Source: Paenirhizobium naphthalenivorans (GTDB taxonomy: Bacteria > Pseudomonadota > Alphaproteobacteria > Rhizobiales > Rhizobiaceae). Taken from it: a stretch of 64,000 nt of DNA. Made by a program: the position numbers and the translations under genes. The notes under the pieces were generated by a model that was not told where the DNA came from, searched no databases, and was given only the letters and a program-made list of their open reading frames with translations. The stretch covers positions 124,001-188,000 of the forward strand of contig NZ_BJZP01000003.1 of assembly GCF_007992095.1 (NCBI RefSeq), in the 5' to 3' direction. Positions 2,634-11,067 of the stretch are shown piece after piece (position 1 is the stretch's first letter; the number at the start of each line of letters is the position of its first letter).

Positions 2634-2754
2634 GTTCGTCCTCCCTTGCTCGACGAGCTCCTTGCACATATCGACATGCTGGAACATCCACTTAAAATTG
2701 TAAACATGACAGGCACGTGATAGTCTCGCGGCCATCGCGCTGATGGGGGTAGAC

Positions 2755-4044
2755 ATGGGCAAGAACATCGTTCTCCTGTTCGATGGAACGTCGAACGAGA
2801 TCGCGGCGGACCGTACCAATGTCCTGCGCCTGTTCGGCACCCTCCGGCGAACAGACAACCAGATCGTCTACTACGACCCCGGCGTCGGCACCTTTGGCGC
2901 CGACAACGCCTGGTCGCGCGTTTGGCGCAAGACGGTGGAAGTCTGGGGACTGGCAACCGGCTGGGGTATCGACGCCAATGTCAAACAGGCCTATCGCTTC
3001 ATCGTCGAGAATTATCAGGCCGCTGCGCGCGATAAGGACGGCAAGAAGATCGGCGAAGACGACCGCATCTATCTCTTCGGCTTCAGCCGCGGTGCCTATA
3101 CGGCGCGGATCCTTGCCGGCTTCATCCACAGCCTTGGGCTAATCCGGCCACAGCAGCTCAATCTTCTCGACTACGCCTATCGGACCTACAAGGGCATCTC
3201 CGATCACAAACCCGCCGCAGACAGTTCAGACGGTGGCGACGACGACGGTGGATCCGCCTTTGCCGACATGCGGATCTACGAGCGTACGCTGAAAGGCTAT
3301 CGCCCGGCGATCGAACTTCTCGGCCTGTTCGACACCGTCGCCTCGGTGATCGAATCCGGCAAGGTCGGCCTCAAGCTCAAGACGCATGCTTTCACCCACC
3401 GCAACCCGAGTGTTCGGGCGGTCCGTCATGCCGTTGCGATCGACGAGCGCCGCACCATGTACAGGGCCGAGGTCTGGACGCCGGACCAGTCCTTCTGGGG
3501 CAGCCCCTTCCCGCCGTCGAAAGACCGGCCGGTTGTGCCGCAGGACAGCAAGGAAGTCTGGTTCACCGGCGTCCATGGCGATGTCGGCGGCGGATCACCC
3601 GAAAGCGAGAGCGCCCTGATCAAGGTGCCGCTCGCCTGGATGATCGAGGAGACGAAGGCCATGGGCCTCGACTACTCGACACGCACGGTCAACGAGATCG
3701 TGCTCGGCAAGAATGCGAAGAAGTCCTACGTCAAACCCGACGCGATGGCGCGCGCGCATGATTCGATGAACCTTGCCTGGCGCGTGGTCGAACTCCTGCC
3801 GCGCCGCGTGCCGTCCTCATCCTGGCGCCACGGCGGCAAGAGCGGCGGCATCTACCTGCCGCTCTCCGACCCACGTTACATCCCGCCGGGTGCCCTGATC
3901 CATCAGTCAGTGGTCGACCGACTGCACGGCACGCCGGCCGATGGCCCCTATCGCCCAACCAATCTGCCGGAAAGCTACCGGATAGAGCCGTGGGGATCCC
4001 TCGCCGGAACTTCGGCCGCCCTCTCCGCCAACGGCGAAAATTAA
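2755..4044 (+). CDS. DUF2235 alpha/beta-hydrolase (T6SS Tle-like phospholipase family)
   Basis: A 429-residue protein of the DUF2235 family, which includes the catalytic domain of some type VI secretion phospholipase effectors. The start motif KNIVLLFDGTSNE is typical. The nucleophile elbow GFSRG is at 109-113 (Ser111), a candidate acid lies in LFDTVAS (Asp193) and a candidate His in VHGDVGGG (His274). There is no signal peptide or membrane segment. The ATG at 2755 has GGGGGT upstream; an in-frame ATG at 2743 lacks a comparable site. No VgrG, PAAR, Hcp or immunity-type gene is nearby, so a secreted toxin role is not supported. A housekeeping esterase or lipase activity is as likely. It is divergently paired with the EEP gene. 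Confidence 0.85.
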   Translation: MGKNIVLLFDGTSNEIAADRTNVLRLFGTLRRTDNQIVYYDPGVGTFGADNAWSRVWRKTVEVWGLATGWGIDANVKQAYRFIVENYQAAARDKDGKKIGEDDRIYLFGFSRGAYTARILAGFIHSLGLIRPQQLNLLDYAYRTYKGISDHKPAADSSDGGDDDGGSAFADMRIYERTLKGYRPAIELLGLFDTVASVIESGKVGLKLKTHAFTHRNPSVRAVRHAVAIDERRTMYRAEVWTPDQSFWGSPFPPSKDRPVVPQDSKEVWFTGVHGDVGGGSPESESALIKVPLAWMIEETKAMGLDYSTRTVNEIVLGKNAKKSYVKPDAMARAHDSMNLAWRVVELLPRRVPSSSWRHGGKSGGIYLPLSDPRYIPPGALIHQSVVDRLHGTPADGPYRPTNLPESYRIEPWGSLAGTSAALSANGEN

Positions 4045-4179: not shown

Positions 4180-4656
4180 ATGGTTGAAAAGGTACCTATG
4201 ACGCAGTCCGGCTTTGCGAAGCTGAACGAGGAGCTGCGTTGGCGCCAGCAGGAAGAACGGCCGCGCATCATCGAGGCGATCGCCGAAGCGCGCGCCCATG
4301 GCGACCTTTCCGAAAACGCCGAGTATCACGCGGCCAAGGAAGCCCAGAGCCATAACGAAGGCCGTATCGGCGAGCTGGAAGACCTGATCGCCCGTGCCGA
4401 AGTCATCGACCTTTCGAAAATGTCGGGCTCCACGATCAAGTTCGGTGCGACCGTCAAGCTGGTCGACGAAGACACAGAGGAACACAAGACCTATCAGATC
4501 GTCGGCGACCAGGAAGCCGATGTGAAGGCTGGTCGCATCTCGATCTCCTCGCCGATCGCCCGCGCCCTGATCGGCAAGGAAGTCGGCGACAATATCGAAG
4601 TCGTCGCCCCCGGCGGTTCCAAGGCCTACGAGATCCTCTCGATCCACTGGGGCTGA
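4180..4656 (+). CDS. greA: Transcription elongation factor GreA
   Basis: GreA rescues backtracked RNA polymerase by stimulating transcript cleavage through its secondary channel. The protein is 158 residues, the normal length. The N-terminal coiled coil has the acidic tip region [14 protein letters not shown], and the C-terminal FKBP-like domain ends in [10 protein letters not shown] and YEILSIHW. The start MVEKVPMT matches the rhizobial form and is preceded by AAGGAAAA. It sits 22 bases ahead of the LPS core glycosyltransferase gene, the greA-lpsB arrangement known from Sinorhizobium meliloti. A TATAGT element at 4074-4079 could be its -10 box, but no good -35 is seen. Confidence 0.97.
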
Positions 4657-4678: not shown

Positions 4679-5731
4679 TTGCGTCCCCTCGACGACATCA
4701 CCGTGATCGCGCCGCATTTCAAGCGGCGCCTTTCCGGCGTGACCTCGACCGTCGTGCAGCTCATACCCGAGCAACGCCGGATCGGGCGCGGTATCGTCAC
4801 GCTCGGCCCCGGCCTGCCGGATGACCTGCCGAAGATGGCCTGGAACCAATTGCCGGCCCTCTGGCGCAGACCGAAATCAGCCAAGAACCGCGTCTGGCAC
4901 GCCCGCCGTAACAACGAGATGCTGCTCGGGATCATCCTGCGCGACGTTCTGCGCATGCCGCTGAAACTGCTGTTCACCTCTGCAGCCCAGCGACATCACA
5001 CCGGCTATACCCGCTGGCTGATCTCGAAGATGGATGCCGTGGTGGCGACGAGCGCCCGCTCCGGTTCCTTCCTCAAGGTACCGCACGAGGTGATCCGCCA
5101 CGGCGTCGACATTAACCGCTTCCGTCCGGGAGACGGCACAACCGACACGGTTGAGGCCACCGGCCTGCCGGGACAATACCTCGTCGGCTGCTTCGGGAGG
5201 GTGCGCCACCAAAAGGGCACGGATCTTTTTGTGCGCGCCATGATCGAACTCCTGCCGCGCTATCCAGAGTGGACAGCGGTCGTCAGCGGCCGCGTCACGG
5301 GGGAAAACCAGGGCTTCGCCGACCAGCTCCAGGCCGACATCGCAGCCGCCGGACTTGCATCGCGCATCGTCTTCCTCGGCGAGGTGGACGACATCAAGCC
5401 TTGGTACCGGCGGCTCACACTCTACATCGCCCCCTCGCGCAACGAGGGCTTTGGCCTCACCCCGCTCGAAGCCATGGCCTCCGCGACCGCCTCCGTCGCC
5501 AGCGATGCCGGCGCCTATGCCGAACTGATCGCCGAAGGTGAAACGGGCAAGGTCGTTCCAGCTAACGACTTTGAGCGCCTCCGCGATGCGATCGCCGTCT
5601 ATCTCGCCGATCCGGCCGAAGCCATCAAGGCGGGCCAACGTGGGCGGGCCCATGTGGTCGAGAATTTCGCGCTGGAGCGGGAGGCCCGCGCGCTTGAGAT
5701 GGTCTATAACCAGCTTCTCGACGCGGACTGA
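4679..5731 (+). CDS. lpsB: LPS core glycosyltransferase (LpsB/LpcC type, GT4)
   Basis: A 350-residue GT-B enzyme of the GT4 family, orthologous in position and sequence style to S. meliloti LpsB and Rhizobium leguminosarum LpcC, which add mannose to the inner LPS core. Visible landmarks are HFKRRLSGVTSTVVQLIP near residue 13, GCFGRVRHQKGTDLF at 170-184 and the nucleotide-sugar E-x7-E motif EGFGLTPLE at 256-264. There is no membrane segment; it acts on the cytoplasmic face of the inner membrane. The start is a TTG at 4679 after GAAAGG, because no ATG is available in frame near the conserved N-terminus. It is followed after 11 bases by the KpsS-like gene, so the two are probably co-transcribed. 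Confidence 0.88.
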   Translation: MRPLDDITVIAPHFKRRLSGVTSTVVQLIPEQRRIGRGIVTLGPGLPDDLPKMAWNQLPALWRRPKSAKNRVWHARRNNEMLLGIILRDVLRMPLKLLFTSAAQRHHTGYTRWLISKMDAVVATSARSGSFLKVPHEVIRHGVDINRFRPGDGTTDTVEATGLPGQYLVGCFGRVRHQKGTDLFVRAMIELLPRYPEWTAVVSGRVTGENQGFADQLQADIAAAGLASRIVFLGEVDDIKPWYRRLTLYIAPSRNEGFGLTPLEAMASATASVASDAGAYAELIAEGETGKVVPANDFERLRDAIAVYLADPAEAIKAGQRGRAHVVENFALEREARALEMVYNQLLDAD

Positions 5732-5742
5732 CAGGCAAGGCG

Positions 5743-6936
5743 ATGGGCGACAAGGATTTCATCATTTGCCGGACCAGCCACCTACGAGGCTTCATCTCAC
5801 GCTTTGGGGATCGTGTGGCCGCCCTACCCTCAGACCTGAAGAGCACGACCATGGGCGTTGCGGGCAGCCAGGGGGTGGCGGGCCTCCTGCGTGCCATCTT
5901 CGTCAATGATGACCCAGTGCTCGATGCGCTGACCGAGCGCAACCTGAAACGCCGGCAGATCCGCTTTCGCGCCGTGTTTTCGAACCCACTGGTCGCCTGG
6001 GCCTATCGCAAAGCGACACAGGTCCAGTGCCGGCTGACCGCTCGCGCCTTCGAGACATGGCTTGAGCAGAACCCGCGGGCCAGCGTCGTGGTCTTCAACG
6101 GCTACCTCATGCCGGATTCCATCCTTGCGGCGATTGCGGCCAAACATAAGCGTTCAATGGTCTTCCTGGAAAAGGGCTTCTTTCCCGGCACCCTGCAATG
6201 CGACCCGGCTGGCATCAACTACCAGAGCTCGCTGCCACGCGATCCGGCGTTCTACCGCGCTTTAGATCCAGCCGATCTCGGCGACAAACCGACCGCGCTG
6301 GTCAAGCGCCAGTCCAAGCTCAAGGACGAAGGCCCCACGTCTTTACCCGCCCGCTACGTCTTTGTCCCCTTCCAGGTGCCGAGTGATATGCAGATCCTGG
6401 CACTGTCACCCTGGATTCGCGACATGCGGCATCTCTACGAGGAGATATTCAAGCTGGCCGAGGCGGAGAGGCAAAGCCATTTCGTCATCAAGGAACACCC
6501 GAGCTTTCCACTGTCTGTCCGAGGCGAAGTCACCCCCCATCCGCGCATCCACTTCGCCAACCATCATGATACTCAGACCCTGATCGAAGGCGCCGATGCC
6601 GTGATCACGGTCAATTCCACCGTGGGTCTTGAATCGGTGCTACTGGAAAAAAAGGTCATCACACTAGGCCTCGCCCCCTATGACATCGAAGGGCTGGCGC
6701 TGAAGGCAGGCGATGCTGCGGCATTGCTCGCGGTATTCCGCTCGCTCGTCCGGTGGCAGCCAGATCCGGAGCTGCGCGAACGGGTCATCCGCTACATACA
6801 GAACATTTTCCTGCTGCAAGGCGAGCTGAGAAATCCCGACCAGCAGCTTCCTGACATGATCGCTACCCGCCTTGCCGGCACTGATCGACACCGTCAGGCG
6901 TTGACGGCCTTTGCCAAAGCGAAGCGCGAATCATAG
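5743..6936 (+). CDS. Capsule-synthesis (KpsS/KpsC-like) family protein, putative Kdo transferase
   Basis: A 397-residue protein resembling the Capsule_synth family (KpsC/KpsS, LipB), whose characterised members are beta-Kdo transferases. Supporting motifs are FLEKGFFPGTLQCDPAGINY at 141-160, FVIKEHPSF at 248-256 and NSTVGLESVLLEKKVITLG at 291-309, the late sugar-nucleotide-binding region. No membrane segment is predicted by eye, so it is probably cytoplasmic or peripheral. It follows lpsB by 11 bases on the same strand, which argues for a role in decorating the LPS core or a linked surface glycan rather than a separate capsule. Its 3' end overlaps the convergent next gene by 43 bases. Family placement is good; the donor sugar is inferred. 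Confidence 0.75.
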   Translation: MGDKDFIICRTSHLRGFISRFGDRVAALPSDLKSTTMGVAGSQGVAGLLRAIFVNDDPVLDALTERNLKRRQIRFRAVFSNPLVAWAYRKATQVQCRLTARAFETWLEQNPRASVVVFNGYLMPDSILAAIAAKHKRSMVFLEKGFFPGTLQCDPAGINYQSSLPRDPAFYRALDPADLGDKPTALVKRQSKLKDEGPTSLPARYVFVPFQVPSDMQILALSPWIRDMRHLYEEIFKLAEAERQSHFVIKEHPSFPLSVRGEVTPHPRIHFANHHDTQTLIEGADAVITVNSTVGLESVLLEKKVITLGLAPYDIEGLALKAGDAAALLAVFRSLVRWQPDPELRERVIRYIQNIFLLQGELRNPDQQLPDMIATRLAGTDRHRQALTAFAKAKRES

Positions 6937-7838
6937 GGGAAACCAGCGCCGATCAGCGCGGAGACCGGCGAGAAATTCCGGATTTCAATATTGCGCTCGG
7001 CGCAGAGCTGACGCGCAAGCAAGAAATGCGCGACAATGCGTCCCGCCGCACCGGCAATGCCCGATCCTGCCGTATCGCCCACCTTCTCGTAGAAGCGCGG
7101 ATCGCCCGCATTCGAGATATCGATACCAAACAGGCCGATGCTGCGTGGCTGGCAAAAGACGGCAAATTGCAGCGCCGACACGGCAACCGAGCCGCCCTGA
7201 AAAACACCACGCGCCGGGTCACGGGAAAAACCTGCTCCCCCATCATCGAGCACGGCGAAGTCCAGTGCCCTTATTTCCTCATCGGAGCGCCGCCTGGTCC
7301 GATAGGGCTTACGGAGATCGTCGATCAAGATCACCCTTTTATTGGCAAGCCAGCCCCGATCGTTTTCGCAGATCGCCCGGATGACACCGACCGATAACAA
7401 GCAGATGGCTCCGGAAACGATCTTTTCCCGCATCAGCGCGAAATGTCGCCAGACGAAGCGCTCATCCTCAATGGCGATCGCCAACGGTTCGGCGATCCGG
7501 CTCCCGATCAGGTTGATCGCGCCGTTGAGAAGGATCGCTTCTCCAGGTCCGACCTTGGAAAAGTCGACTCCGGCGATAGATGGCCCGGAACCGACGATAT
7601 GAACCGTGCCACGCGCGGCGCGGCGCAGCAGGTCCGCATGGTAGAGCCGGCCAACCGGCTCTCCCCTGAAACGGATCGTCCCCTCCCCCTCCAGGGCCTC
7701 CGGCAACCGCAAGTCCAGCCCCGGAATCCAGTTCTGCGCATGCGCCCAGGCCTTACCAAAGAAAACGGTCGTAGCGAGTTTGACGATCGAACGCTTGAAT
7801 GGCCGCTCAGATTTCAGTTTCAACGCCGCTCTCTCCAT
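6894..7838 (-). CDS. GT42/DUF115-like putative glycosyltransferase
   Basis: About 314 residues, not recognised as a named protein. The segment GTVHIVGSGPSIAGVDFSKV (77-96), followed by AILLNGAINLIG, resembles the nucleotide-binding start of GT42 sialyltransferases and of the DUF115 motility-glycosylation proteins. A later hydrophobic strand, SIGLFGIDIS, fits the same Rossmann-like fold. I chose the ATG at 7838; a TTG at 7856 would add six residues and neither site has an ideal ribosome binding site. It lies in the LPS core locus, convergent with the KpsS-like gene (overlapping it) and divergent from the pyruvyl-transferase gene. A role in adding an acidic sugar to LPS is an inference from context. 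Confidence 0.6.
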   Translation of the reverse strand: MERAALKLKSERPFKRSIVKLATTVFFGKAWAHAQNWIPGLDLRLPEALEGEGTIRFRGEPVGRLYHADLLRRAARGTVHIVGSGPSIAGVDFSKVGPGEAILLNGAINLIGSRIAEPLAIAIEDERFVWRHFALMREKIVSGAICLLSVGVIRAICENDRGWLANKRVILIDDLRKPYRTRRRSDEEIRALDFAVLDDGGAGFSRDPARGVFQGGSVAVSALQFAVFCQPRSIGLFGIDISNAGDPRFYEKVGDTAGSGIAGAAGRIVAHFLLARQLCAERNIEIRNFSPVSALIGAGFPYDSRFALAKAVNA

Positions 7839-7980
7839 TCCTGGGACTTGTCCCAAAGCCCCGCAACCGTGCCGCCGGCAAGAGACTTGATTGTACCGCG
7901 CCTCTGCGCCTAAATGCTGGCCAATTCAAGCATGGCCCGGCCGGAGGCAGCCGTTCCGGCATACGCGAAAGATCAATCCC

Positions 7981-9003
7981 TTGCCAATCAAAGCCGTCAT
8001 TTTGAACGACACCCGCGGCGACAACCACTTCGGCTGTTTCCGGGTCATGCGGCTCATCGAGGAAAACCTCGCAAACCGGGGCATTCACGTACTGGCCCGT
8101 AGCGGCGTGCGCAACGACTGGGAAAACGACCGGCCGTTCCTCAGTGCAATGGCCAAGAGCGACATCATCGTCATCAACGGCGAAGGGACACTCCATCACG
8201 GCGCCAAGGCAGGAGCCCGCCTTCTGCGCGTCACCGATCATCCGGCCCGCAGCGGCAAACCGGTCGCGCTGATCAATGCGATATACCAGGAAAACCCATC
8301 GGAATGGTCCCGCTATCTCCAAAAGATGACCATCATCTCTACGCGCGATTCCTGGAGCGCCGAAGAGGCCAGCCGCCATGCCGCCCGGCCCGTTGGCTTT
8401 GTCCCGGATCTTTCCCTTTCCGGCGGCTTCACTGAAGCCCCCCCCAATGTGACGCGCGATCTGCTGCTACTCGGTGACTCCGTTTCGCGCGACATCTCAC
8501 GCCAGCTCCTCGCCCTTGCCGATTCACGTGCAGACGCCCGCCTGCTTCCGATCCTGAAGACGATCAAGGCAAGCAAGCCGCACTTTTCGGCGCCAACCAG
8601 GCTATTGCGGGAGGGTTATATCCGGCTTCATGCCAGGGCTTTCGGCTGGAGGCACGGCAATGTCCTGTTCAACAAGGACGAAGCCGGATTCATCAACACC
8701 CTCCAGCACGGTTACCTTCATGTAACCGGTCGCTTCCACGCAGTCTGCTTCTGCCTCTTCACAAAGACGCCGTTCCTTGCGATCGAGTCCAATTCCTGGA
8801 AGATCGAGGCGCTGATGAACGATCTCGGTCTCGGTACGAGACGACTGGTCCGGATCGAGGAGCTGCCCGGCCAACTCACGATGCCTGACGTGCTCGCCTT
8901 TTCCACAGAGGAGATGCGGGCGATCGAGAACGGAATCGCTATGTGCCAAACACGCGCGGCCAAGCTCTTCGACGACATCGCCGATGCGGCGCAGCGCACA
9001 TAG
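7981..9003 (+). CDS. Polysaccharide pyruvyl transferase family protein
   Basis: About 340 residues with the pattern of the polysaccharide pyruvyl transferase family (ExoV, CsaB, WcaK), which moves pyruvate from phosphoenolpyruvate to a sugar to form a ketal. Seen are the N-terminal VILNDTRGDNHFGCF, INGEGTLHHG at 65-74, and the late TGRFHAVCFCLFTKTPFLAI with a downstream SNSWKIEALMNDLGL, the usual HxV/SK region. The start is uncertain: I use the TTG at 7981, where family similarity begins after GAAAGA. An upstream TTG at 7891 would add 30 residues of atypical composition. Adding a negative charge to the LPS core or O-chain is the likely outcome, inferred from the neighbours. Confidence 0.75.
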   Translation: MPIKAVILNDTRGDNHFGCFRVMRLIEENLANRGIHVLARSGVRNDWENDRPFLSAMAKSDIIVINGEGTLHHGAKAGARLLRVTDHPARSGKPVALINAIYQENPSEWSRYLQKMTIISTRDSWSAEEASRHAARPVGFVPDLSLSGGFTEAPPNVTRDLLLLGDSVSRDISRQLLALADSRADARLLPILKTIKASKPHFSAPTRLLREGYIRLHARAFGWRHGNVLFNKDEAGFINTLQHGYLHVTGRFHAVCFCLFTKTPFLAIESNSWKIEALMNDLGLGTRRLVRIEELPGQLTMPDVLAFSTEEMRAIENGIAMCQTRAAKLFDDIADAAQRT

Positions 9004-9012
9004 AATTCCCGT

Positions 9013-9663
9013 TTAGGAATCCATTCCAGATCGCCGATGCGAGAAGCGAGCATCCGAGCCCACGAGGCGCAAGACGAAGTCTTCCTCGGTATCGTAGTCG
9101 TGCGGGGTCGTTTCTTTGGTCTGCCCTCCCGAGAAGGAACCGCTTTGATAGAAATCGAAACCGTAGAGATCCATCGATTTGCATGGCGAACGGCTGAGCA
9201 AGTCAATCATCATTAGTCCGCTTGTCGGCCGAGGGTTGCCGACCTGGGCACATAGGGCCTGATGGCGCTCGCGCGGATAAAGGAAAAAGGATGGTGATCG
9301 CAGGATCCAGCGCGGCAAGGCATGGCGCGGGGGCGACATCCAGAAGATATAGCTCGCTCCTCGCTCGATCATCAGCGACGGGTCCACCTCGAAGCTCGTT
9401 GCAATCACGTCCGTGCGGCTACCGTGGGAGACCGTGGACGGGATTGGTGAGAATTTGAAGCGAATGATCAGATCGTGGTCATCAATCTCCGCTCCGAAGG
9501 CTGAGTCGGCAAGCGATCTGGCGTTCCCCACAACAGCAACCCGCTTTTGCCGAACCAAATCGAAAACATCCTGTTCGGTCAGTGGTGAGCTGTATTGCAA
9601 GCCGAGGAACCGACGCCAAGCACCAATGAAGCGAAGGCGCTTCTTTTCATACTTCTTCTTCAA
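9013..9663 (-). CDS. GT29-like sialyltransferase-family protein
   Basis: A 216-residue protein that shows the motif layout of glycosyltransferase family 29, best known from animal sialyltransferases but also found in some bacteria. The L-motif-like stretch is RVAVVGNARSLADSAFG followed by EIDDHDLIIRFKFSP (41-73). The S-motif-like stretch is PTSGLMMIDLLSRSP with LYGFDFY (146-172), and a VS-like His-x4-Glu follows in HDYDTEED (188-195). GSRTDV at 81-86 also fits the family. The N-terminus is basic, without a clear membrane anchor. The start is a TTG at 9663 with no convincing ribosome binding site, so the true start may lie elsewhere. Base composition is less GC-rich than the flanking housekeeping genes. 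The real donor (Kdo, Kdn, nonulosonate or other) is unknown. Confidence 0.65.
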   Translation of the reverse strand: MKKKYEKKRLRFIGAWRRFLGLQYSSPLTEQDVFDLVRQKRVAVVGNARSLADSAFGAEIDDHDLIIRFKFSPIPSTVSHGSRTDVIATSFEVDPSLMIERGASYIFWMSPPRHALPRWILRSPSFFLYPRERHQALCAQVGNPRPTSGLMMIDLLSRSPCKSMDLYGFDFYQSGSFSGGQTKETTPHDYDTEEDFVLRLVGSDARFSHRRSGMDS

Positions 9664-9719
9664 GATCGACCAAATAGACAGTGTCTTACCCCTGATTCTA
9701 GAGCGTTTTTCCGCTCTCG

Positions 9720-10565
9720 TCAGCGAAGGGCCGACGCATCGGTAACCATAGCGTAGACCAAACGCGCCAGCAACATTCCCTTGGTTCGCAAATAGCGCCG
9801 AAAATAGGGGATATCGTGCAGGTCGCGCCGGTCCATTTCCTCCTGTTCACGGTCCGTCATTTCATGAAATTCGTAGGCGCCTCGCCTGAGTGGAAGCAGT
9901 GACCTCTTGCGTCTTCCGGACCGATAGGTCTTCGGAAATGGCACATGCATTACGACCGGAGAGAATGGAAAAAGCCGGACATATCCTAGTTGGGCAAGAT
10001 CCTTCTTGTTTGCCGATTCGCTCTCCCGGAAAACCCAGCCGAGTCCCTTCAGCGTCGACAGGCGAAGAATGCCAACATCAGCATATGAGCGACGGTTGTC
10101 ACCGTCCGGAAACCGATAGGCTCTGACCTTTTCAAGGATCTCGTAGGGGTACCCTTTTCGCAAAAAGCGAGGATCAACCTGTAGAACCTTATCATCCGAC
10201 GCGAAAAGCTGACCGTACTGTTTCTGCATGGGCTCATCGAACGGCCTGACGAACTGCATGTCGTCCTGGATAAGGAATATGAATTCATATCCTTCATCCT
10301 GTGCATAGCCACACATCCTCTGGATATTCCTGTAGAGGTTGCCATGACGTCGACCTTCCTTATCCTCCGTCGATGCCACGCACAGCTTCAGCCGCGGACG
10401 GTATTTTTCGATAATCGCCCGCGTGACGGGATCCTCACTCTGGTCGTCGATCACTGCGACGTCGAATCCCGGACACATCTTGAAGGTCGACTGGATGCAA
10501 CGCTCCAAGGCTGTCCCCATATTGTAGGAGAAAATGCACAGCAGCACGTTTTTCGATGTCAGCAT
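9720..10565 (-). CDS. Family 2 glycosyltransferase
   Basis: A 281-residue GT-A fold enzyme of family GT2. The N-terminus VLLCIFSYNMGTALERCI, the first acidic pair in VIDDQSEDP (38-46) and the metal-binding DxD-like IQDDMQF (99-105) are all present. No membrane helices are evident, so it is a soluble or peripheral transferase using a nucleotide sugar on the cytoplasmic side. It lies 19 bases downstream of lrp on the same strand and ahead of the GT29-like gene, so the three may share a transcript. Codon use includes more A/T-rich codons than the neighbours, which fits a variable LPS locus. The sugar and linkage cannot be told. Confidence 0.8.
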   Translation of the reverse strand: MLTSKNVLLCIFSYNMGTALERCIQSTFKMCPGFDVAVIDDQSEDPVTRAIIEKYRPRLKLCVASTEDKEGRRHGNLYRNIQRMCGYAQDEGYEFIFLIQDDMQFVRPFDEPMQKQYGQLFASDDKVLQVDPRFLRKGYPYEILEKVRAYRFPDGDNRRSYADVGILRLSTLKGLGWVFRESESANKKDLAQLGYVRLFPFSPVVMHVPFPKTYRSGRRKRSLLPLRRGAYEFHEMTDREQEEMDRRDLHDIPYFRRYLRTKGMLLARLVYAMVTDASALR

Positions 10566-10584
10566 TGCAACGGATGTCCTTGAA

Positions 10585-11067
10585 TCAAATCTCCACCAGG
10601 CCGACCTTCTTGACCTGGCGGATCGTCAGCATGGTGCGCACAGTGTGGACGTGTTCGTTCGCCGTCAAAACCTCGATGACGAAATCCTGAAACTTCGTCA
10701 GGTTCTCGGCCACGCAATGCAGCAGGAAATCGCTGTCGCCGGAGACCATCCAGGCCTGACGGACCATCGCCCAGCCGTCGGTCGCGGCGGCGAAGGCCTT
10801 GAGATTACTCTCTGACTGATGCTTGAGGCCGATCATGCAGAAGGCAACCAGATCAAGACCGAGCTTCGGCGCGTTCAACATGGCATGATAGCCCTCGATA
10901 ATCCCCGCCTCTTCCAGCTTGCGCACCCGCCGAAGACAGGGTGGCGCCGAGATCCCGACCCGCTCCGAGAGCTCGACATTCGTCATTCTCCCGTCACATT
11001 GCAGTTCACGCAGGATTTTCAGATCAATAGCGTCCAGCTCGGCTCTCAACACGGATCGGCCTTTCAT
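10585..11067 (-). CDS. lrp: Lrp/AsnC family transcriptional regulator
   Basis: A 160-residue Lrp-type regulator. The N-terminal winged helix-turn-helix is seen as LDAIDLKILRELQCDGRMTN, then VGISAPPCLRRVRKLEEAGII. The C-terminal RAM ligand domain starts at MLNAPKLGLDLVAF and carries the DFLLHCVAENL strand. Such proteins form octamers and respond to amino acids such as leucine. The gene lies between the LPS locus and trxB, the same place as lrp in the S. meliloti lps cluster, and is divergent from trxB with 208 bases between the starts. The ATG at 11067 is the only sensible start, though its ribosome binding site is weak. Confidence 0.92.
   Translation of the reverse strand: MKGRSVLRAELDAIDLKILRELQCDGRMTNVELSERVGISAPPCLRRVRKLEEAGIIEGYHAMLNAPKLGLDLVAFCMIGLKHQSESNLKAFAAATDGWAMVRQAWMVSGDSDFLLHCVAENLTKFQDFVIEVLTANEHVHTVRTMLTIRQVKKVGLVEI

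Follow-up and report, generated by a model that had tools for sequence, protein, structure and literature searches.

The Gene Island between lpsB and lrp

The window analysed here, a stretch of 64,000 nucleotides from a Paenirhizobium naphthalenivorans contig, has the gene order greA-lpsB-[island]-lrp-trxB, and a gene for a GT29 (sialyltransferase-family) glycosyltransferase is located within the variable island (Table 1). By this gene order, the locus is recognized as an LPS-core locus, which bears out the placement in an LPS locus that had been given in a first-pass annotation of this DNA. The name lpsB is used here on the basis of position (the greA-lpsB order is described in PMC3788101) and of GT4 family membership; trxB was confirmed by NCBIfam. 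A gene similar to that of Tle1, a T6SS phospholipase effector-type protein (PF09994, 251 bits), adjoins greA at positions 2743-4044 and is present at the same place in 11 of 20 congeneric relatives.

Table 1. Features of the lpsB-lrp region (positions are those of the window).
Feature	Position	Strand	Basis
greA	4180..4656	+	NCBIfam NF001261, 259.7 bits
GT4 glycosyltransferase, lpsB position	4679..5731	+	Pfam PF13692, PF00534
KpsS-like Capsule_synth protein	5743..6936	+	Pfam PF05159, 81.9 bits; NCBIfam KpsS, 42.1 bits (cut-off 600)
Distant WaaZ (KdoIII transferase)-like protein	6894..7856	-	NCBIfam TIGR04437, 30.7 bits, E 1.9e-7
pyrT (PS_pyruv_trans family), convergent with GT29	7891..9003	+	Pfam PF04230, 43.1 bits
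GT29 (sialyltransferase-family) glycosyltransferase	9013..9663	-	216 aa, TTG start; Pfam PF00777 and AlphaFold2 model
VS-like sialylmotif, H188-x4-E193, with the putative base of catalysis and its Glu partner	9085..9102	-	counterpart of HDGDFE in the ST3Gal-I alignment
Sialylmotif S-like, residues 146-171 (PTSG...DLYGFDF)	9151..9228	-	aligned to PSTG...DLYGFG of 2wml
Sialylmotif L-like, residues 42-70	9454..9540	-	alignments to ST3Gal-I, column counts
GT2-family glycosyltransferase	9720..10565	-	Pfam PF00535, 24.9 bits
Lrp/AsnC regulator, bordering the island on the right	10585..11067	-	Pfam PF13412, PF01037
Module that was probably exchanged (most of pyrT, GT29, GT2)	8050..10620		protein identities and 200-base identity profile; ends approximate

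The GT2 gene is on the same strand, upstream of GT29 and 56 bp from its start; the two genes probably form one transcription unit. A GT2 gene also adjoins GT29 in the related loci L175 and L176; none was found in loci L142, L143, L144 and L174.

A GT29 Protein Is Predicted in the Island

The first-pass annotation had placed a GT29 homologue here without giving a strand, and had proposed a profile search against Pfam Glyco_transf_29 (PF00777) and a structural comparison with a mammalian enzyme as checks. The ORF is on the minus strand, from a TTG codon at 9663 to a stop codon ending at 9013; in the congeneric orthologue of L175 (72% identity), an ATG lies one residue off this position. The profile search returned a significant match (50.2 bits, E 3.1e-13, with a cut-off of 23 bits), while no other Pfam family was retrieved up to E 10 and no NCBIfam family up to E 1. 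When PDB sequences were searched with phmmer, ST3Gal-I was retrieved at 1.3e-6, followed by ST6Gal-I and ST8SiaIII; with a profile built from 19 homologues, the values were 8.8e-14 for ST3Gal-I and 0.008 for the GT42 enzyme CstII. At the level of sequence, the GT29 match is thus far beyond chance.

Comparison with the orthologue in L007 (L007 and L176 are one locus of a single genome) gave dN of 0.21 and dS of 1.43, i.e., dN/dS of ca. 0.15, a value that indicates purifying selection. The G+C content of the gene is 56%, lower than the 61% of the window.

Predicted Structure and Sialylmotifs

An AlphaFold2 model computed from the window protein, L007 and 35 further homologues had pLDDT of 91.2 and pTM of 0.88. 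Foldseek comparison with the PDB at E ≤ 0.001 returned 41 matches, all of them sialyltransferase entries, and the first 30 were GT29 chains. VIA-align superimposed the model on porcine ST3Gal-I (2wml) with Z of 15.8 and rmsd of 3.3 Å over 191 aligned residues, so the unrelated fold that would have spoken against the assignment did not arise. The predicted model has the GT-A variant 2 fold of sialyltransferases. Judged by profile and predicted fold, the ORF is a real GT29 protein.

Conservation was followed in two alignments. A1 was composed of homologues with clear phmmer scores and omitted the distant types L008, L009, L019, L027 and L032, a short subfamily of ca. 205 aa, gene duplicates and L003 (E 1.31); A2 combined 35 of 49 distinct frames from viral-labelled contigs (65 loci) with L007 and the window GT29. 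Residues G46, N47, R68, G81, G149, G168, D170, H188 and E193 are invariant across both, H188 and E193 being kept in all 18 other sequences of A1 and all 36 of A2. The motif strings claimed in the first-pass annotation are present in the claimed order, at residues 42-70 (L), 146-171 (S) and 188-193 (HDYDTE, VS), and both the S motif and the H-x4-E of the VS motif are recognized.

The L and S motifs and H-x4-E align with those of ST3Gal-I, including its CMP-site motifs, with one donor-contact Asn as the exception. The L motif is clear and N47 is present, while the second donor-contact Asn position is occupied by Lys (K70, codon AAA, 9454-9456); Asn occupies this position in each of the 18 further members of A1 and in 35 of the 36 of A2. 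In our own mapping, made by sequence alignment on the basis of the N-S pair and a spacing of 23 residues, N47 and position 70 appear to correspond to Asn147 and Asn170 of human ST3GAL1. Asn147, Ser148 and Asn170 are among the residues whose change is reported to alter activity of that enzyme, and His319 is given as the catalytic base of porcine ST3GAL1 (PMC8433944).

No string recognizable as sialylmotif III occurs in the protein. C161 aligns with the Cys of the S motif, but the Cys of the L motif is replaced by Q39, and an L-S disulfide is therefore not expected. Both hallmarks of eukaryotic-type GT29 enzymes, motif III and the cysteine pair of the L-S disulfide, are thus missing. Bacterial GT29s are described as typically devoid of the L-S cysteines, but motif III was retrieved in them (PMC5811610).

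Genes Accompanying GT29 within the Genus

Core loci were compared in 20 of the 31 congeneric relatives that had an lpsB match, and three more loci were added after genus-wide searches. The interval between lpsB and lrp is variable: the WaaZ-like gene, pyrT and GT29 occur together in 3 of the 20 relatives, and none of them was detected at E 1e-6 in the other 17, one of which (L141) carries a different PS_pyruv_trans gene. Among 63 congeneric genomes, GT29 and the WaaZ-like gene were found in the same seven (E ≤ 1e-6; Fisher p 1.8e-9, uncorrected for kinship). All seven GT29 core loci, which by gene identities form at least two groups, contain the complete triad, with pyrT adjoining GT29 in each. 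The partners of GT29 are the WaaZ-like gene, with which it is one-to-one in the genus, and the PS_pyruv_trans gene.

The WaaZ-like protein scores far under the 200-bit cut-off of TIGR04437 and is treated here as a distant relative, not as WaaZ itself. Two relatives of this protein gave nothing in NCBIfam at 1e-10, a threshold that the window protein, at 1.9e-7, would also fail. A PDB profile search with the WaaZ-like alignment (A4) yielded nothing beyond 5mu5 at E 1.1, an AlphaFold2 model from two sequences had pLDDT of 44.8, and hhalign detected no relation between the GT29 (A1) and WaaZ-like (A4) profiles (probability 0.4%).

The first-pass annotation had described GT29 as standing beside a KpsS-like gene and had drawn its suggestion about the transferred sugar from this. 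The KpsS-like gene in fact ends ca. 2 kb from GT29 with two genes between them, and no linkage was observed: it is present in 9 of the 20 congeneric relatives, six of these without GT29, and was not found in L175 and L176, both of which retain GT29. Because of this distance and distribution, KpsS adjacency was rejected as evidence for Kdo.

Identity Profiles across the Island

The genes of the island differ in their closest relatives. Compared with L142, L143, L144 and L174, protein identity is 85-88% for lpsB, 74-80% for waaZ and 93-95% for trxB, but 56-60% for pyrT and 45-49% for GT29. Compared with L175 and L176, the values are 54-55%, 58-59% and 86-88% for lpsB, waaZ and trxB, and 83%, 70-71% and 82-83% for pyrT, GT29 and GT2. 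The module is closer to L175 and L176 and its flanks are closer to L174 and L143; in the DNA profile the crossovers fall at about 8.05 kb, within pyrT, and at about 10.6 kb, on the boundary with lrp. The strand arrangement also differs from that in L142, L143, L144 and L174. From the identity profiles, the pyrT-GT29-GT2 module looks to have been replaced via homologous recombination.

Donor Sugar

The genome was searched for NeuB and for CMP-ulosonate synthetases. No NeuB was detected at E ≤ 1 in the window genome (99.55% complete), while the same search produced matches in 10 of 14 control genomes. The CTP_transf_3 search gave one strong match, which is KdsB (NCBIfam, 420 bits), and three weaker ones; a single one of these also passes the cut-off, and by eye it reads as GlmU. 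With no NeuB detected and with KdsB as the sole CMP-ulosonate synthetase found, CMP-Kdo is the likeliest donor of the window GT29. Of the Kdo- or nonulosonate-like sugar that had been suggested from the sequence, the Kdo type therefore stands as the best inference, while a nonulosonate is an unlikely donor here, if not in all of the relatives.

The distribution of NeuB was followed in related genomes. In the bacterial family, with the GT29 and NeuB sets taken as the same 297 genomes, 6 of the 42 genomes with a GT29 (E ≤ 0.01) carry NeuB, as do 53 of the 255 without one; there is thus no enrichment (Fisher p 0.41). Where the GT29 passes the Pfam cut-off, the count is 4 of 22, and in a search of 52 GT29 genomes it is 8. 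Within the genus there is a weak positive trend, with NeuB in 4 of 7 genomes with GT29 versus 12 of 56 without (63 genomes, Fisher p 0.06). One of those four is the genome of L007, the close relative that was identified earliest; in all four, NeuB is on contigs other than that of GT29. Two GT29 genomes, G689 (99% complete, 2 contigs) and G704 (only 88% complete), show no NeuB and keep the cassette, so NeuB is not needed for cassette retention.

In another genome, G234, a GT29 of distant type (L019) lies ca. 4.5 kb from NeuB; the wider GT29 family may therefore use more than one donor. The name of the plant protein GALT29A denotes a galactosyltransferase. Since this protein is grouped in GT29 (PMC11288761), membership of the family alone does not fix the donor. 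Loss of another plant GT29, RCKT1, is reported to remove Kdo from RG-II (PMC11288761, PMC12168206), and LpcB of Rhizobium leguminosarum has been termed a CMP KDO transferase (PMC11103875).

Occurrence of GT29 Genes beyond the Genus

GT29s of the window type are patchily distributed: among 397 genomes from the order, 11 carry one (E ≤ 1e-6), that of the window included. The window genome contains a second GT29, C10 (G000; L117:7694-9802), of 399 aa and 39% identity; its N-terminal extension has no Pfam match, and the gene adjoins another PS_pyruv_trans gene and a GSCFA gene. Homologues of pyrT or PS_pyruv_trans genes are located near GT29 in 7 of 17 examined loci of the window subtype (six by phmmer, one by Pfam), and in L008:250-2496 a single 749-aa frame combines GT29 and PS_pyruv_trans domains. 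A methyltransferase-GT29 fusion is seen by Pfam in L118 (the same gene as L014), with L010, L012, L042 and L043 similar by eye only. The short (ca. 205 aa) GT29-like subfamily, with a motif of the CGF[ST]W[EQ]GWKRH type, recurs in the bacterial family (L017, L018, L020, L029, L030, L033 and L036), and in L134 a short gene of this kind is followed by one that resembles GT25 by eye.

GT29-like ORFs are frequent on viral-labelled IMG/VR metagenome contigs (L052-L116; 65 loci, 49 distinct frames). All six that were scanned pass the Pfam cut-off, and that of L052 is fused to GT8. One 201-kb viral-labelled contig carries two tandem GT29 genes (L103:2480-3546) with a GDP-mannose dehydratase gene nearby, as well as a gene that matches cytidyltransferase PHROGs; INPHARED phages gave no match to the L103 GT29. 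No PHROGs match was obtained for seven GT29 proteins, that of the window and six from viral-labelled contigs. The term "glycosyltransferase family 29" occurs in a review of coccolithoviruses (PMC5371807). Plasmid-borne spread of GT29 was also considered and set aside, as the plasmid collection gave no match.

Proposed Role and Alternatives

We consider it probable, though well short of certain, that the window protein is an inverting GT29 that adds Kdo from CMP-beta-Kdo to the LPS core and thereby carries out one step of a variable cassette for core decoration. We infer its activity, donor, acceptor, linkage and order of steps as follows. KdsB of the genome would make CMP-beta-Kdo; the L and S motifs would hold CMP, with H188 as the catalytic base; and the enzyme would place Kdo in alpha linkage onto the growing core, where the WaaZ-like protein, the PS_pyruv_trans protein and the GT2 enzyme would be its partners in decoration. 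The protein would be cytoplasmic, as no membrane segment is apparent by eye. Counting against transfer of Kdo are K70, the lack of motif III, the NeuB trend in the genus, the position of L019 near NeuB, GALT29A and the remoteness of the WaaZ assignment.

Several of these points bear on other explanations. Should the protein have the GT29 fold and use another donor, such as a UDP-sugar or a Kdo derivative in amino or oxidised form, Lys at a CMP-contact position and the existence of GALT29A would be accounted for, but retention of the remaining checked CMP-site residues and the WaaZ-like partner in all seven congeneric GT29 genomes make this unlikely. Transfer of a CMP-activated nine-carbon nonulosonic acid (of sialic, legionaminic or pseudaminic type) would parallel that of sialic acid by the GT29 enzymes of animals, and it would agree with the NeuB counts in the genus and with the gene pair of G234; we nevertheless regard it as quite improbable here, given that searches of the window genome yielded neither NeuB (E ≤ 1) nor a second strong CMP-ulosonate synthetase, that G689 and the less complete G704 keep the cassette and show no NeuB, and that no association is seen in the family set. 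An intact ORF, the kept catalytic His and Glu, the low dN/dS against L007 and the well-ordered model likewise speak against a decaying or catalytically dead copy remaining after module exchange, for which K70, the missing motif III, a strand arrangement that differs from L142, L143, L144 and L174, and the lower G+C content could be cited; we give this explanation little credence. Kdo transfer to the LPS core is the reading that we retain.

Relation to Known Systems

Bacterial GT29s are already known, and the view in the first-pass annotation that they are little studied underrates them: Petit et al. (2018, PMC5811610) analysed 23, from alpha-, gamma- and epsilon-proteobacteria. As described there, these proteins share with the window GT29 the L, S and VS motifs and the lack of an L-S disulfide and of a membrane anchor (for the window protein, as judged by eye), but differ from it in motif III, which was retrieved in that set. 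For the window GT29, gene cassette and donor supply are also worked out. An E. coli K6 ORF with GT29 and GT107 parts has been linked to an apparent Kdo homopolymer (2026, PMC13171606); according to the same source, both families transfer ulosonic acids. This is also a bacterial GT29 in a Kdo-polysaccharide context, yet it belongs to a capsule and is fused to GT107, whereas the window GT29 is a stand-alone protein of an LPS-core locus. The Arabidopsis GT29 RCKT1/MGP2 is assigned to CMP-Kdo transfer, as we propose here, but it is a plant protein acting on pectin RG-II, and its activity in vitro is described as still to be shown (PMC11288761).

Porcine ST3Gal-I (2wml, 2wnb) has the fold, the L and S motifs and H-x4-E in common with the window GT29, which is shorter, shows 19% identity over the structural alignment, has K70 in place of the donor-contact Asn and is devoid of the L-motif Cys and motif III. 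The GT42 enzymes Cst-I and Cst-II of Campylobacter jejuni have a fold similar to the model (Z ca. 10 to 12) and are weaker by sequence than the GT29 entries (E ca. 0.01). No characterised GT29 in an LPS-core locus was found in the literature searched, most subscription papers lying outside the search. The gene context of the window GT29 is thus new and testable.

A proposal made in 2018 derives the GT29 sialyltransferases of eukaryotes from genes of alphaproteobacteria (PMC5811610). One may speculate further, and only tentatively, that the LPS-core enzyme is a CMP-Kdo GT29 in obligate pair with the WaaZ-like protein in an exchangeable cassette, and that alphaproteobacterial GT29s were ancestrally Kdo transferases and the source of both plant Kdo transferases and animal sialyltransferases. 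Expression of the plant Kdo-type GT29 in E. coli did not succeed for its finders (PMC11288761). A small bacterial GT29, from a genome with CMP-Kdo and no sialic acid route seen, offers a tractable way to test whether Kdo transfer is among the old functions of the family. Its one-to-one pairing with the WaaZ-like gene predicts which LPS-core structure to seek, and the module that looks to have been exchanged would represent one route by which LPS cores diversify.
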